Source: Cutibacterium acnes
Lineage (GTDB): Bacteria; Actinomycetota; Actinomycetes; Propionibacteriales; Propionibacteriaceae
Assembly: GCF_003030305.1 (NCBI RefSeq)
Contig: NZ_CP023676.1
Location: forward strand, 930,001-994,000
Direction: 5' to 3'
Length of the DNA stretch: 64,000 nt
A program made the position numbers and the translations under genes. The notes under the pieces were generated by a model. It searched no databases. It had not been told where the DNA came from and saw nothing but the letters and a program-made list of their open reading frames with translations. The stretch's first letter is position 1. Every line of letters starts with the position of its first letter. This document shows, one piece after another, positions 448 through 7,203 of the stretch.

Positions 448-1392
448 TCAGTCAAGATGGCCTAGCACCGCCCTCGCCGTCGCTATGTCGGTTACCAGAT
501 CCGTCACCCATTTACCTCGCAGAATTGCCGTTAGGGCCGGCACCTTTTCGGATCCAAAGGCGCTGACGATGACGTGGGTGATTGATGGAATCCGGTCCAG
601 CGGAACTGCCATCAACCCTTGACAAAAGTCTGCGTCAATGTGACGACCCCGGGTATCGACGTGATGCCCGCAGATGTGTCCTACGGCCCCGCGTGACAAC
701 AACTCTGTGTGTGCGCGCTCCGACATCACGTGGTCGAAGATCGGCGCCACCGAATGCATTCCGACTGTTCCTACGCCGGTCACCAAGATGTCTGCGTGAG
801 AGGCCATCGCGATCGTCATACCCACTGACTCCTCGGCCTTCAACGCGGCCGCTGCCTGAGGATTCGACACCAGCACCGGAGCCGGCATCACCCGGTATGC
901 ACACCCGATTCGTTCTGCTAGCTGACGGCACAACTCGGGAGAGTCCAACAACAAATTTCCCTTGGCTGTCCCACCAATAGCCTGCACCACCGTGGCCCCC
1001 GGACGGCGTATCGGCGTCATCGCATGCACCACTGACGCCACCCCGCGCCCGTTCGACAACGCGATTACCGAATCGGGATGCATGTACGTCGTCACCAGGT
1101 CGGCTGCCATCCGCGCCACCTCGTCGGCCGTGGCATTGTCGTTGGACATCGCGACTCGGGCGCAGGTCAGCCCGAAGGTGCGTGTCAGAGCGTCCTCTAA
1201 CTCGATGGCTCGCTCCAAAGGATGCTGCACTGTGAACGTGATGATCCCGCGACGCCTCGCCTCGTCAAGAAGCCTGGACACCATCGAGCGGGAGTAGCCG
1301 ATCTCGGCGGCGATTTCGGCTTGAGTGGCCTGCTCTAACCAGTACCGCCGCGCGACCGTCAGCAAGGTTTGGATGTGTTCGCGATCAGTCAT
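448..1392 (-). CDS. SorC/DeoR-type sugar-binding transcriptional regulator
   Basis: A 314-residue regulator. Residues about 15-50 form a helix-turn-helix (QAEIAAEIGYSRSMVSRLL), followed by the SorC sugar-binding domain, an isomerase-like fold that binds phosphorylated sugars. The domain has the family's glycine-rich phosphate-binding stretches (ALSNGRGVASV, ADILVTGVGTVG). Length matches the family. It is transcribed away from the sugar-acid operon starting at 1572, and a palindrome at 1399-1412 ends 6 nt upstream of its ATG, so it probably controls both itself and the operon. The inducer is not visible from sequence; a phosphorylated intermediate of the operon is the natural guess. Confidence 0.85.
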   Translation of the reverse strand: MTDREHIQTLLTVARRYWLEQATQAEIAAEIGYSRSMVSRLLDEARRRGIITFTVQHPLERAIELEDALTRTFGLTCARVAMSNDNATADEVARMAADLVTTYMHPDSVIALSNGRGVASVVHAMTPIRRPGATVVQAIGGTAKGNLLLDSPELCRQLAERIGCAYRVMPAPVLVSNPQAAAALKAEESVGMTIAMASHADILVTGVGTVGMHSVAPIFDHVMSERAHTELLSRGAVGHICGHHVDTRGRHIDADFCQGLMAVPLDRIPSITHVIVSAFGSEKVPALTAILRGKWVTDLVTDIATARAVLGHLD

Positions 1393-1398
1393 GAGTGT

Positions 1399-1412
1399 CT
1401 CACAGATGTGAA
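1399..1412. promoter_or_regulatory. Candidate operator, regulator side
   Basis: CTCACA-GA-TGTGAA is an imperfect palindrome and the reverse-strand counterpart of the motif at 1482-1495. It sits just upstream of the SorC-type regulator's start codon, where a bound repressor would block its transcription or initiation. Confidence 0.55.
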
Positions 1413-1481
1413 TCTTTGTGGTAGGTCCACCGTTAAAACGGGAAGTAAAGCCACCATACTAGCCTTTCTGCTTAGGATGAA

Positions 1482-1495
1482 TTCACATGTGTGAA
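1482..1495. promoter_or_regulatory. Candidate operator, operon side
   Basis: TTCACA-TG-TGTGAA has perfect 6-nt arms. It lies 76 nt upstream of the hydrolase start at 1572. It matches the site at 1399-1412 at 12 or 13 of 14 positions depending on orientation. Two copies in a divergent promoter next to a SorC-family gene suggest co-operative binding. No -10/-35 pair stands out clearly. Confidence 0.6.
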
Positions 1496-1571
1496 CTCAT
1501 GGCCTTGCGGGGTTGCTGTGGCGGCGGCTCAATGGTTCCCGTCACACAGTCGTGAGAGAGGAATCACTCCA

Positions 1572-2564
1572 ATGGCCGTCGTTCGTACCATCAATGGCGA
1601 CGTTTCGCCCGACACCCTCGGCGTCGTCAATGCCCACGATCACCTCATCCGCGTCGGAGCCGGGGAGGTCTACATCGACCCTGACCACTTGCTTGACGAC
1701 GTCGACAAGGCAGCCCAGGAGGCTACATATTTCGTCGAGGCCTCTAAGAGCTGGGCCGCTGGGGGAACCATCATCGACATGTGCCCGGCCTCCTCAGGCC
1801 GCGGCGTGCTCAAAACCCTCCAGGTCGTCGAGAAGGTTCCGGGGCTGCAGGTCGTCCAAGCCACCGGATTCCACCAGCAGAAGGTCTACCTCGAGTGGCG
1901 TCAGAGCTGGGTCAACCAGTACACCGTCACTCAGATCGCCGATCTACTCATCGCCGACATCGTTGAGGGCATCGACCGTTTCGACTATATGGGCCCCATT
2001 GTCGAGCGCACCAACGTCAAGGCGGGCGTCATCAAGTGGGCCACCGCCTACGGCAAGATCACCGAGTGGGAAAAGAAGTCCGGCCAAGCCGTCGCCATCG
2101 CATCTAAGGAGACCGGCTGTCCCATTAACACCCACGTGACGGCCGGAACTTGTGGCCCTGAGCAGGCAAGATTCCTTGTTGACCAGGGTGTTGATCCGGC
2201 CAAAATCGCTATCGGCCATATGCAGCGCAACTGGGATCCCTGGGTTCACGAGCAGATCTGCAAGCTCGGCTGCTACGTCGAGCTGGACGGCACTAACCGC
2301 ATCAAGTACGTCCCGGATAACACCCGCGTCAACCTCGTGAAGACCCTCGGTGAGAAGGGCTACGGCAAGCAGATTCTGTTGGGCACCGACTCCGGTAAGG
2401 CCTCTTACCAAAAGGTTTACGGTTCGGTCTCAGGCATCGATTACGATCCGGCCGTCTTCTGTCCACGTCTCGTCGAAGACGAAGGCGTCGACCGCGACTA
2501 CGTTAACGACCTCCTCATCAACAACGCGGCCACCTTCTTCGGCTTCGAGCCGCTGGCCGGGTGA
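1572..2564 (+). CDS. Phosphotriesterase-family metal-dependent hydrolase (probable phosphosugar lactonase)
   Basis: A 330-residue COG1735 amidohydrolase. All ligands of the binuclear metal site are visible: His22-x-His24 (AHDHL), the carboxylated lysine Lys155 (AGVIKWA), His188 (INTHVT), His216 (AIGHMQ) and Asp273 (GTDSG). The ATG at 1572 is chosen because GAGAGAGG lies about 10 nt upstream and the HxH motif then sits at the usual distance; an in-frame start at 1491 would overlap the operator. Several family members hydrolyse sugar lactone phosphates. Standing first in an operon with UlaD/UlaE/AraD-like genes, it is a likely non-orthologous replacement for the UlaG lactonase (inference). The stop overlaps the next start. 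Confidence 0.85.
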   Translation: MAVVRTINGDVSPDTLGVVNAHDHLIRVGAGEVYIDPDHLLDDVDKAAQEATYFVEASKSWAAGGTIIDMCPASSGRGVLKTLQVVEKVPGLQVVQATGFHQQKVYLEWRQSWVNQYTVTQIADLLIADIVEGIDRFDYMGPIVERTNVKAGVIKWATAYGKITEWEKKSGQAVAIASKETGCPINTHVTAGTCGPEQARFLVDQGVDPAKIAIGHMQRNWDPWVHEQICKLGCYVELDGTNRIKYVPDNTRVNLVKTLGEKGYGKQILLGTDSGKASYQKVYGSVSGIDYDPAVFCPRLVEDEGVDRDYVNDLLINNAATFFGFEPLAG

Positions 2565-3223
2565 CGACGATGCCACGACTTCAGATCGCTCTTGACACCT
2601 ATGATCTGCCGTCGGCCCTGGCTCCGTTGGCCACCGCCGTCGACCAGATCGACATCATCGAGTGCGGTACCATCCTCGTCCTTGCTGAGGGAATGGATGC
2701 GGTGCGGGCTATCCGGGCTGCCTACCCTGACAAGACAATTCTTGCTGACGTTCGCATTGCCGAAGCCGGGGCCAAGATCGCCCGAATGTGCTTTGAAGCA
2801 GGCGCCGACCTCGTCTCCTGTGTCGCCGGAGCATCCCTGACAACCATCGACCAAGTATGCAAAGTGGCCGGGGAGTTCGGCGGTGAAGTGCAAGTCGAGC
2901 TCGCCGACGAGTGGTACGACGCCGAGCGTGCCCGCAGATGGCGCACACTCGGCGTCCAACACGTCATCGTCAAGCGTTCCCGTGACCGCGAGGCCGCCGG
3001 AGACCTCTCCTGGAAACCAGAAGACCTCGGGCGGGTCGACGAGCTGGCAGGAATGGGATTCACCGTCACCGTCACCGGAGGAATCACCCCCGAAGACCTT
3101 CCGGTTTTCGCTGGGCATCCGGCCGGCATCGTAATTGCCGGTCGCTCAATTGTCGCTGCTGATGATCCCAAAGCTGCCGCGAAACGACTGCGCTCCACCT
3201 TGGATGAGGTGTGGCCGCAATGA
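2561..3223 (+). CDS. UlaD-like 3-keto-gulonate-6-phosphate decarboxylase homologue with altered active site
   Basis: A 220-residue TIM-barrel protein of the OMP-decarboxylase superfamily, very similar in layout to E. coli UlaD (ALDTYD, IIECGTIL, VTVTGGI, IAGRSI). The family's DxKxxD motif reads D63-V-R65-I-A-E68, so lysine is replaced by arginine and the second aspartate by glutamate. The UlaD YHRSRD motif reads VKRSRD, with Lys138 where His136 of UlaD sits. Asp12, Glu34 and Glu113 are kept. The fold is secure; the exact reaction is not. The GTG at 2561 overlaps the previous stop; an ATG at 2570 is an alternative start. Confidence 0.8.
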   Translation: MTTMPRLQIALDTYDLPSALAPLATAVDQIDIIECGTILVLAEGMDAVRAIRAAYPDKTILADVRIAEAGAKIARMCFEAGADLVSCVAGASLTTIDQVCKVAGEFGGEVQVELADEWYDAERARRWRTLGVQHVIVKRSRDREAAGDLSWKPEDLGRVDELAGMGFTVTVTGGITPEDLPVFAGHPAGIVIAGRSIVAADDPKAAAKRLRSTLDEVWPQ

Positions 3224-4107
3224 CCGAATCGCTGACCGACGGGGTGACCCTCGGCATCTATGAGAAAGCCCTCGTCGGCAACCCCTTGGCTACCGACGAC
3301 GACTGGCGACGCTTCCTAAACCAGGTACCCGAGGCAGGATTCAGCTTCGTCGACCTGTCCGTCGATGAGTCTGAAGAGAGGATGGCACGGCTCGGATGGG
3401 ACCAGCGCCGGCGTCGCATGGTGCGCCATTGCGTTGAGGCCACAGAAACCGCTATTGGTGGTGTCTGCTTGTCGGTACATCGGCGTATTGGCCCTGGTAG
3501 TGCCGACCCAGCCGTGCGCCAGCGAGCTCGGGAGGTGATGGGCGAAGGATTGCAGCTGTGCCACGACCTTGGCGCTCCTGTGCTTCAGGTCGCGGGGTAT
3601 TACTGCTACTACGAGCAGATGAACGACCATGCCGAGCAGTGGTACACCGACCTCCTGCTCGATGCCGTCCCGATGGCTGCACGGCTGGGGGTCGTCATGG
3701 GCATCGAGAATGTTGACGGCACCGACGTCACCTCTATCCGGAAGGCGATGGAGTTTGTCAAGCTTGCCGACTCGCCCTACCTGCAGGTGTACCCAGACCT
3801 TGGCAACATTGCCGAGCAACAGCTTGACGTCGTGACCGAACTCGAGGCCGGGCGGGGCCACATGGTCGCGATCCACGTCAAGGATGTTAGGCCGGGCGAG
3901 CCTCGTCGGGTACCAATGGGGGAGGGCACCGTCGACTGGGACGAGTCCTTCGCTGTCCTTGCTGAGCAGGGTTGGCGCGGCCGAATGATGATCGAGATGT
4001 GGAACGACGACGCTCCCGATTCCAACACGCGCAGTGCGTCAGCACGCCAGTTCATAGAGGAGCATCTTAGGACCGCTGGAATCCCGGTTCGCCGCGCCCT
4101 CTTTTGA
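3220..4107 (+). CDS. UlaE-like L-xylulose-5-phosphate 3-epimerase
   Basis: A 295-residue xylose-isomerase-like TIM barrel, close to E. coli UlaE in length and motif order: DLSVDESEERMARLGW, CLSVHRR, the metal-binding Glu in GIENVD, His in AIHVKD and Glu in MIEMW. No catalytic residue seems to be missing. It would interconvert L-xylulose-5-P and L-ribulose-5-P after decarboxylation. Its ATG overlaps the preceding stop as ATGA, implying coupled translation. A GTG three codons upstream (3211) is an alternative start. Confidence 0.85.
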   Translation: MTESLTDGVTLGIYEKALVGNPLATDDDWRRFLNQVPEAGFSFVDLSVDESEERMARLGWDQRRRRMVRHCVEATETAIGGVCLSVHRRIGPGSADPAVRQRAREVMGEGLQLCHDLGAPVLQVAGYYCYYEQMNDHAEQWYTDLLLDAVPMAARLGVVMGIENVDGTDVTSIRKAMEFVKLADSPYLQVYPDLGNIAEQQLDVVTELEAGRGHMVAIHVKDVRPGEPRRVPMGEGTVDWDESFAVLAEQGWRGRMMIEMWNDDAPDSNTRSASARQFIEEHLRTAGIPVRRALF

Positions 4108-4194
4108 CCCTGGGCTGGGGGCTCGGCATGAATTCCGGGCCGCCCAGTTCTGCGCCTCTACAAATTTTCATTATTGTTCAAAGGAGAACCCTTC

Positions 4195-4863
4195 ATGCTT
4201 GAAAAGCTCAAGACAGACGTCTGTCGAGGCAACCTCGGACTGCCCCGTCATGGACTTGTGACGTGGACCTCGGGCAACCTGTCCGCTCGGGACCCTGAGA
4301 CCGGCCTTGTCGTCATCAAGCCGTCCGGGATGCTGTATGACGCTATGACCCCGGACGATATGGTTGTTGTCGACCTTGACGGCAAGGTCGTGGAGGGGCA
4401 TCGAGGAGCGTCCTCCGATACCGCCTCACACTTGTATGTCTACCGACGTCGCGACGACATTCGGAGCATTATCCACACCCATTCCACCTTCGCCACCGCG
4501 TGGGCGGCCACTGGCCAGGACATCCCCTGTGCAGTGACGGCCATCGCTGATGAGTTTGGGGGGCCAGTGCCGTGCGGCGACTACGCCCAGATTGGCACTG
4601 AACAGATTGGTGAGCAGATCATGAGGTTCATTGACCAGTCGCCAGCGGTGCTACTCAAAAAGCATGGTGTCTTCACTGTCGGCACCTCGATCGAGAAGGC
4701 CATCAAAGCAGCTGTCATGGTTGAGGACGTCGCCAAGACCCTCACCTACGCCAAACTCATCGGCGAGATCTCCCCACTTCCACAGTCGGAGATCGACTCC
4801 AACCACGATCGATACACCAACCGTTACGGCACTGCGGCAGCATCCACGGGGGTGACGGCATGA
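4195..4863 (+). CDS. AraD/UlaF-family class II aldolase/epimerase (probable L-ribulose-5-phosphate 4-epimerase)
   Basis: A 222-residue class II aldolase/adducin protein. Zinc ligands are seen in IIHTHST and KKHGVF, the substrate loop in SGNLSA, and the AraD-type SSDTASH carries Asp where aldolases have Glu. The start at 4195 follows AAAGGAG at 4181-4187. Oddly, the C terminus reads NRYGTAAAS instead of the AraD ending HGxxAYYGQ, so the tyrosine equivalent to the catalytic Tyr229 of E. coli AraD is not evident. Epimerase is the likeliest role given the neighbours, but an aldolase or decarboxylase role cannot be excluded. An 87-nt gap precedes it and its stop overlaps the kinase start. Confidence 0.78.
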   Translation: MLEKLKTDVCRGNLGLPRHGLVTWTSGNLSARDPETGLVVIKPSGMLYDAMTPDDMVVVDLDGKVVEGHRGASSDTASHLYVYRRRDDIRSIIHTHSTFATAWAATGQDIPCAVTAIADEFGGPVPCGDYAQIGTEQIGEQIMRFIDQSPAVLLKKHGVFTVGTSIEKAIKAAVMVEDVAKTLTYAKLIGEISPLPQSEIDSNHDRYTNRYGTAAASTGVTA

Positions 4864-5810
4864 CCTACGACATCTCGACCATCGGCGAGGGGCAGATCCG
4901 GCTCACCTGCTATAAGGGTGAACGTCTCATTAATGCCCAGCAGTTGCGTGCCACCGCAGCCTGCTCCGAGGCCAATGTGTCCGGCTTGTTGTCTCAACTT
5001 GGGCGCAGTACCTGTTGGGCCTCTGTCATGCCGAAGGGCGATCTTACTGATCGGGTCGTCAACGAGTTCCGCAGTGTTGGGGTCGACGTTTCCCACATCT
5101 GTATGAAGCCCGAAGGGCGCGTCGCGTTGTATTTCATGGAGCCCGGTGAGTATCCGATGCCTGCCCGCGTGCTCTACGACCGGGAGCACACCCCGTTCCG
5201 CGACGTCACCGTCGAGGACCTCGACTGGGAGGCCTTGCTCGATACCCGTCTGGTCTTTGTCACTGGCATCACCGCTGCCTTAACCGAGAATACTGCGGCT
5301 GTGGTGCGTCACTTCGTTGACGAGGCTCACCGCCGTGGCATTGCCGTCGCCCTCGACGTCAACTACCGGTCCCTGCTGTGGGGTCCGGAGCACGCTCGTG
5401 AGGTGTTGGAACCAATTGCAAGGATGTCGAATATTGTCTTCTGCTCGGTGCGTGATGGCAAGGCCGTCTTCGGCATCGAATCTGATGGGGAGCAGGCATG
5501 CCGCGAATTGCGTGAACTGTTTGGGGTCCCGACGGTCGTGTCTACCGATCAAATCAATGGTGTGTACTTCTCGGACGCCGAGCGCGGCGACTGCACGTTC
5601 CCCGTGGTTCAGGTGCCCGTCATCGACCGCCCGGGCGCGGGAGACTCCTTTGTCGCGGGAACCCTTCACGGGTATCTCGGAGGTGACGTGGTGCAGGGAA
5701 TCCATTATGGACAGCGGACCTCCGCCTACGCTCTAACCCATTACGGTGATCTGACTCGTGTGAGCCCTAGCGAACTCAATATTCCCCCGAATACCGACAT
5801 TCTGCGCTGA
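4860..5810 (+). CDS. PfkB-family carbohydrate kinase (2-keto-3-deoxygluconate kinase-like)
   Basis: A 316-residue ribokinase-fold protein. The PfkB signature DRPGAGDSFVAG near residue 258 carries the GAGD anion hole and catalytic Asp. ALDVNYRSLLW resembles the KdgK subgroup, which phosphorylates keto sugar acids. It overlaps the preceding gene by ATGA and is followed by the permease. In an operon with a permease rather than a PTS, this is the obvious enzyme to phosphorylate the imported sugar acid or lactone. The phosphate acceptor is inferred from context only. Confidence 0.85.
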   Translation: MTYDISTIGEGQIRLTCYKGERLINAQQLRATAACSEANVSGLLSQLGRSTCWASVMPKGDLTDRVVNEFRSVGVDVSHICMKPEGRVALYFMEPGEYPMPARVLYDREHTPFRDVTVEDLDWEALLDTRLVFVTGITAALTENTAAVVRHFVDEAHRRGIAVALDVNYRSLLWGPEHAREVLEPIARMSNIVFCSVRDGKAVFGIESDGEQACRELRELFGVPTVVSTDQINGVYFSDAERGDCTFPVVQVPVIDRPGAGDSFVAGTLHGYLGGDVVQGIHYGQRTSAYALTHYGDLTRVSPSELNIPPNTDILR

Positions 5811-5844
5811 ACCTGATCACAGCGCAGACAGGAGACACACTCAC

Positions 5845-7203
5845 ATGTCCACCTCAACAACACCCAAACAATCAGCTCTAGACCTCATCGATTCGCGTCC
5901 CTTAACGCGCAATCAGAAGAATCTTGTTGCCCTAGCCGTCGTCGGAAATATCTCCGAGTTCTTTGATATCTTCCTCATTGGTTTCGTCGTATCCGTCCTG
6001 ACTAAGCCATGGAATCTGACTGGCACTGAGGCGGGCGTCATTCTCGCCTGTTCCGGTCTGGGGACGGTCATTGGCGCCATCATGTGGGGACGTCTTGCCG
6101 ACAAGATCGGACGCCGCTCCTCTTTCTTCTGGTGCGTGCTCCTGTTCGTCGTGTTCACTGTAGTATCAGTGTTCACCCCAGATCGTGGCTGGATTATGCT
6201 CGCCATTTTGCGTATTGGCGTGGGGATCGGAGTCGGCGGACTTAATATCACCTCGATTCCCTACGTCCAGGAGTTCGTGCCTGCTAAGCAGCGCGGTCTT
6301 CTTGCCGGCCTGGCGTCGGTATTCATCCCCCTCGGTCTGTTCTTGGGGTCGTTAGCACAAAATGCACTGGGCGATAATTGGCGTGCCCTCATCGCTTTGG
6401 GCGCCATTCCTGTTTTCCTGCTGGTGTGGATCCGTTTCGTGCCCGAATCACCACGGTTCCTACAGAGTCATGGGCGTGATAAGGAAGCACGCGAGGCCCT
6501 AGCCTGGGCACTCGATATACCCGCTGACGACATTGGAGATTTGCCTGCCGTTGAACACGTCCAAGACGCTTCCTACTCACTTGTCTTTGGTAAATACCGC
6601 AAGAGTCTTCTCATCGTCAGTCTGGGATCATTCTGCTTCATTCTGGGCTCTTTTACGATTCAGTCGTGGGGCCAGACCCTGCTCAAGACCGGCTTTGGCA
6701 AGTCTCCCGAGCAAGTCGGGACCCTGTTCATGTTCGTTTCCCTGGCCGATCTCATCGGGCGCTTCCTATCAGCATGGCTGGCAGACCGCATTGGTCGGAG
6801 AGCCACCATGTTGTCGTTTGGCCTCATCGGTGCTGGCGGGACTCTCATCATCGCCCTTTCGGCCCGCCTGGGTTGGGGCTGGCAGATCTTCTTCGTCGGT
6901 GTCCTCATTGCGATGGCCTTCGCCGACGGCGCCTTCGGCATCCTCAATGCTTTCGGCGCCGAGCAATTCCCCAACGAAGCTCGCTCGACTGGTCTGGGAC
7001 TGGGCTACGGCATCGGCGCCACCGCCAAGATCATCGGTCCGGCGCTTATGGGACTCATGGTGGGCGGATCTGCCGTCAAGCAGAATGTCACCCTGGACGC
7101 GGTATTTCCGGCATTCATCCTGTTCGCTGTGCTGCTAGTCATTGGCGGTATGACGTACATGTTTGCCCGCGAAACTCGTGGCACCTCGCTCGACACGATC
7201 TGA
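5845..7203 (+). CDS. MFS sugar or sugar-acid transporter
   Basis: A 452-residue major facilitator permease with about 12 membrane segments. Motif A is present in both halves (GRLADKIGRRSS and WLADRIGRRATM), and the sugar-porter-like PESPRFL follows TM6. It ends the operon, 34 nt after the kinase, with AGGAGA ahead of the ATG. The expected role is proton-coupled import of the sugar acid processed by the preceding enzymes. The substrate is unknown. Confidence 0.88.
   Translation: MSTSTTPKQSALDLIDSRPLTRNQKNLVALAVVGNISEFFDIFLIGFVVSVLTKPWNLTGTEAGVILACSGLGTVIGAIMWGRLADKIGRRSSFFWCVLLFVVFTVVSVFTPDRGWIMLAILRIGVGIGVGGLNITSIPYVQEFVPAKQRGLLAGLASVFIPLGLFLGSLAQNALGDNWRALIALGAIPVFLLVWIRFVPESPRFLQSHGRDKEAREALAWALDIPADDIGDLPAVEHVQDASYSLVFGKYRKSLLIVSLGSFCFILGSFTIQSWGQTLLKTGFGKSPEQVGTLFMFVSLADLIGRFLSAWLADRIGRRATMLSFGLIGAGGTLIIALSARLGWGWQIFFVGVLIAMAFADGAFGILNAFGAEQFPNEARSTGLGLGYGIGATAKIIGPALMGLMVGGSAVKQNVTLDAVFPAFILFAVLLVIGGMTYMFARETRGTSLDTI

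Follow-up and report, generated by a model that had tools for sequence, protein, structure and literature searches.

The six genes between positions 1572 and 7203 of the window (the whole stretch of Cutibacterium acnes DNA that was analysed, 64,000 nucleotides from a genome of 2,495,001 bases) appear to form, together with a divergent regulator, a self-contained catabolic unit for L-ascorbate or one of its stereoisomers that is probably SorC-regulated and ends at D-xylulose-5-phosphate; we put the probability of this reading at roughly 0.55. Judged from the sequences, the most unusual point of the operon is a new observation that was not noticed in the earlier note on this DNA: three catalytic residues of the UlaD homologue are exchanged. 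The literature searched yielded no study of this operon and no account of C. acnes using ascorbate.

Gene content and putative operators

All six genes are intact, co-directional and tightly packed on the forward strand (Table 1). They encode, in the order claimed in the earlier note, a lactonase of the phosphotriesterase (PTE) type, UlaD-, UlaE- and AraD-like enzymes, a PfkB kinase and an MFS permease, the last of the Sugar_tr/aromatic-acid:H+ type according to family profiles, and the family assignments agree with those given there. The span of 1393 to 7203 given there holds all six genes, but leaves out the divergent SorC-type regulator, which is part of the operon unit; the two palindromes went unmentioned.

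The two TTCACAnATGTGAA-like palindromes lie 83 bases apart inside the 182-base intergenic region and are presumably bound by the SorC protein. Five other loci (L029, L030, L031, L032 and L035) show the same 83-base spacing, and many Actinomyces intergenic regions contain weaker palindrome matches only. Only three places in the genome fall within 1 mismatch of TTCACAnATGTGAA, two of them being the operon sites at 1399 and 1482. The third site (165070–165083, L159) precedes a large ORF for a membrane transporter and is probably a chance match.

Table 1. Positions in the window of the operon genes, the regulator and the operator-like palindromes.
Feature	Positions	Strand	Remarks
SorC/DeoR-type sugar-responsive regulator	448–1392	-	divergent from operon; PF04198 Sugar-bind, 181.6 bits
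Operator-like palindrome CTCACAGATGTGAA	1399–1412		near regulator start; 1 mismatch to TTCACAnATGTGAA
Operator-like palindrome TTCACATGTGTGAA, within ATGAATTCACATGTGTGAACTCAT	1482–1495		TTCACAnATGTGAA-like
PTE-family phospho-furanose lactonase homologue	1572–2564	+	PF02126; best PDB match 3msr/3ovg; probable start ATG 1572
UlaD/KGPDC homologue with K64R, D67E, H136K (E. coli numbering)	2561–3223	+	PRK13306; model matches 1kv8
UlaE-type L-xylulose/L-ribulose-5-phosphate 3-epimerase	3211–4107	+	PRK13209; start GTG 3211 or ATG 3220
AraD-type L-ribulose-5-phosphate 4-epimerase	4195–4863	+	PRK06557; 1jdi; probable start ATG 4195
PfkB kinase related to 2-keto-3-deoxygluconate (KDG) kinase	4860–5810	+	PF00294; candidate ascorbate (or 3-ketogulonate) 6-kinase
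MFS permease, sugar/organic-anion type	5845–7203	+	PF00083; TIGR00895 below cut-off

Residues and structural matches of the enzymes

The UlaD homologue scores 235 bits against PRK13306 and does not reach the cut-off of 250. Its structural model (pLDDT 94.6) has E. coli KGPDC (1kv8) as the best PDB match, with TM values of 0.94/0.96, and a UlaD search of the genome returned this gene as the single match. The residues D11, E33, T36, D62, E112, R139, T169 and R192 are kept, and positions 112, 139, 169 and 192, which discriminate KGPDC from hexulose-6-phosphate synthase (HPS), are of the KGPDC type, unlike in HPS. The canonical KGPDC motif, DxKxxD together with H136, is nevertheless absent. In place of K64, D67 and H136 of E. 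coli UlaD, all three listed in a published signature table (PMC5980557), the homologue has R64, E67 and K136. Mutants K64A and H136A of E. coli KGPDC are on record in PDB titles.

A comparison of 26 clade members with 19 canonical sequences revealed exactly three columns that are invariant in each set and differ between the sets, namely 64, 67 and 136, all of which are catalytic. The altered pattern, DxRxxE with K136, occurs in 27 of 27 clade members when the distant L128 is included as the 27th, and FastTree, with HPS as the root, places these UlaD homologues in one clade (support 0.96). K, D and H are kept in the UlaD of three annotated ulaG-containing clusters, from Pantoea, Aerococcus and Levilactobacillus, as well as in the closest matches from the phylum of a Lachnospiraceae genome. 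Among 396 Actinomycetota genomes, sampled rather than surveyed exhaustively, two carried a DNA pattern of the changed motif, and both belong to this clade. Within the sequences sampled, the R/E/K swap is confined to this clade. We know of no natural variant of this kind, with the catalytic motif swapped as a set, from the literature searched or the sampled genomes. Because three catalytic residues differ, the activity of UlaD could be lost or altered; we presume that decarboxylase activity is retained.

The best PDB matches of the PTE are 3msr/3ovg (2.8e-59), followed by 3pnz. The protein shares with these phospho-furanose lactonases the metal ligands and a putative phosphate pocket, but it is 34–38% identical to them, and its score against the NCBIfam family (NF045706), 237 bits, does not reach the equivalog cut-off of 630. 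All six metal ligands (H21, H23, K154, H187, H215 and D272, numbered from residue 2) are present, and the compared loci retain them in every case where the aligned segment extends over these positions. The pocket residues K244, K275 and Y278, presumed counterparts of the residues that contact phosphate in Lmo2620, do not vary within the actinobacterial clade. Outside it, most sequences have K, R/K and Y at these positions; L058, L059, L076 and L098 are among the exceptions. A phosphorylated lactone is the likelier substrate, since these presumed contacts are kept. Characterised relatives of the enzyme act on pentonolactone phosphates.

Both epimerases pass their family cut-offs, with 385 bits against 317 for the UlaE homologue (PRK13209) and 342 against 251 for the AraD homologue (PRK06557). 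The former aligns over nearly its full length with E. coli UlaE (3cqh, 1.7e-64) and keeps E, D, H and E residues that are presumably metal ligands. The latter keeps the equivalents of H95, H97, D120 and H171; an apparent lack of the catalytic Tyr in the alignment was dismissed, as a C-terminal NRYG/VYGQ motif is the likelier match by eye, and the Tyr is probably supplied by the C-terminal NRYG. The PfkB kinase matches the KDG kinase structures 2afb and 1v19 and contains a GAGDSF motif.

Recurrence of the module and known counterparts

A scan of named genomes with the PTE alignment yielded 80 loci, and the module is found, besides the window, in 25 actinobacterial loci from Cutibacterium, Acidipropionibacterium, Propionibacterium, Actinomyces, Actinobaculum and unclassified relatives. 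A more distant member (G133/L128; PTE 61%, UlaD 68%) has the full gene order. Because the order recurs in these loci, the cluster is not due to chance; AraD is missing or divergent in some of them. AraD had no match in the fetched stretches of L036 and L048, where the 4-epimerase may come from elsewhere, and many Actinomyces loci (L041, L042 and others) carry a divergent AraD (45–49%) that follows the MFS gene in the opposite orientation and whose C-terminus is mostly VYGQH. The SorC-type regulator adjoins the PTE gene in most actinobacterial loci. That there are few shared neighbours is an impression only, since shadow ORFs of high-GC DNA interfere with the clustering of neighbours. In the Chloroflexi loci L055, L056 and L078, two PTE homologues flank an AraD-like gene, with no UlaD match.

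The E. coli ula regulon (ulaG, ulaABCDEF) likewise opens the lactone before decarboxylation and leads to D-xylulose-5-phosphate through UlaD, UlaE and UlaF-type steps. By contrast, the operon described here has an MFS permease and a kinase instead of the PTS, a PTE-type protein instead of UlaG and a SorC-type regulator instead of UlaR, and the catalytic residues of its UlaD are altered. Non-PTS uptake and a kinase that feeds the KGPDC route are also features of the E. coli yiaK-S pathway for 2,3-diketo-L-gulonate, which differs in its reductase, TRAP transporter and FGGY kinase and has no lactonase. On a Levilactobacillus plasmid (L163, 2236–3792), the gene of an FGGY kinase is next to ulaG and ulaD, and a PTS IIC gene is close by.

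The Mycoplasma clusters also combine a PTE-family gene with UlaD, UlaE and AraD, and the PTE has been proposed as the missing UlaG on the basis of gene context (PMC4866288). Most of these loci consist of PTE, a gap of ~2.7–3 kb, and then UlaD, UlaE and AraD; L083 matched PTE only. The gap in the two loci that were read (L067 and L074) holds three genes with ascorbate-type PTS IIC, IIB and IIA as best NCBIfam matches, below the curated cut-offs, and the PTE therefore sits where UlaG would be needed. Queries with PfkB and MFS gave no match in the Mycoplasma clusters and, unlike the clade described here, their UlaD keeps DxKxxD and H136. The suggestion that a PTE-type lactonase replaces UlaG is favoured by the metal ligands, the putative phosphate pocket and the lack of a UlaG match in the genome, but it was anticipated for mycoplasmas; the variant features here are the kinase–MFS entry and the substituted UlaD residues.

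The genome-wide absences come from profile and protein searches. No match to UlaG (PRK11709) was obtained anywhere in the genome, with the E. coli control over the cut-off, which agrees with the absence of UlaG claimed previously. The absence of the PTS, claimed alongside, is true of the operon but not of the genome: an ascorbate-type PTS IIC (NF006919, 535 bits against a cut-off of 380) and a IIA-IIB fusion are encoded at ~482.7–485.1 kb (L156, 6690–9093), about 450 kb from the operon, and could be the entry route for ascorbate instead. None of the ten ORFs scanned near the two IIC genes was recognisable as UlaD, UlaE or a lactonase. A link to this PTS through SorC sites was discarded, as the whole-genome search within 1 mismatch found no site there; when up to 3 mismatches were allowed on one strand of L156, the only matches were two weak ones, at 1260 and 8369, and neither lies upstream of the PTS genes.

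Proposed route and alternatives

In the proposed route, L-ascorbate or a stereoisomer would be taken up through the MFS permease and phosphorylated at position 6 by the PfkB kinase in an ATP-dependent reaction. The PTE-type lactonase would open the phosphorylated lactone ring to 3-keto-L-gulonate-6-phosphate, and the UlaD homologue would decarboxylate this to L-xylulose-5-phosphate by the KGPDC reaction, with Arg64 and Glu67 acting for Lys64 and Asp67, and Lys136 for His136. 3-Epimerisation by UlaE and 4-epimerisation by AraD would then give D-xylulose-5-phosphate. We propose only tentatively, on the basis of sequence comparison, that the UlaD homologues of this clade are functional decarboxylases which catalyse the reaction of KGPDC, or one that differs from it in stereochemistry, with the Arg64–Glu67–Lys136 set, fed by an ATP-dependent ascorbate 6-kinase and no PTS.

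We infer both the substrate and the order of kinase and lactonase. By family assignment, none of the six operon genes encodes an oxidoreductase; the simplest assumption is therefore a substrate that already has the oxidation level of 3-ketogulonate. Ascorbate or an isomer would fit this better than gulonate, galactonate and dehydroascorbate, which the earlier note had listed as candidates as well. The kinase and permease in place of the PTS, on a route to D-xylulose-5-phosphate, remain the natural reading of the operon, with UlaE and AraD of the expected types. Against this reading stand the three exchanged catalytic residues of UlaD, the PTS elsewhere in the genome, the proximity of the kinase to KDG kinases, the score of the PTE below the equivalog cut-off and the pentonolactone phosphates used by its relatives.

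It is unlikely that the same substrate is processed in the reverse order, such that the PTE converts free ascorbate by ring opening to 3-keto-L-gulonate and the open acid is then phosphorylated by the PfkB kinase. The closest relatives of the kinase indeed phosphorylate open keto sugar acids, and LyxK of the E. coli yia pathway phosphorylates the open acid 3-keto-L-gulonate; yet the PTE retains the presumed phosphate contacts K244, R/K275 and Y278, and in mycoplasmas the PTE is associated with a PTS, a transporter that supplies its sugar in phosphorylated form. We prefer to place the kinase before the lactonase because gene order in Mycoplasma speaks for a PTE whose substrate is a lactone phosphorylated by a PTS.

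Similarly doubtful is the degradation of a different C6 acid lactone, with R64/E67/K136 reflecting another decarboxylase substrate or stereochemistry. The catalytic nature of all three columns that discriminate the sets, and the restriction of the swap to this clade among the sequences sampled, speak for it, whereas the retention of E112, R139, T169 and R192 and the L-xylulose-5-phosphate/L-ribulose-5-phosphate type of UlaE and AraD argue against it. An HPS function of the UlaD homologue, in an operon for formaldehyde or pentose phosphate metabolism, is very improbable even though the two related enzymes, KGPDC and HPS, are both promiscuous (PMC5980557): the HPS signature residues are missing and those of KGPDC present, which led us to reject the formaldehyde route, sampled actinobacterial HPS-like sequences retain DxKxxD, and no hexuloisomerase is found among the operon genes.

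Should the ascorbate reading hold, common actinobacteria of the skin, mouth and rumen would be able to use vitamin C, or a relative of it, through a kinase-based route. In one lineage, the residues of a catalytic motif common to KGPDC, HPS and OMPDC would then have been exchanged together, which would offer a natural test of the motif parts required for decarboxylation and of re-routed proton delivery.
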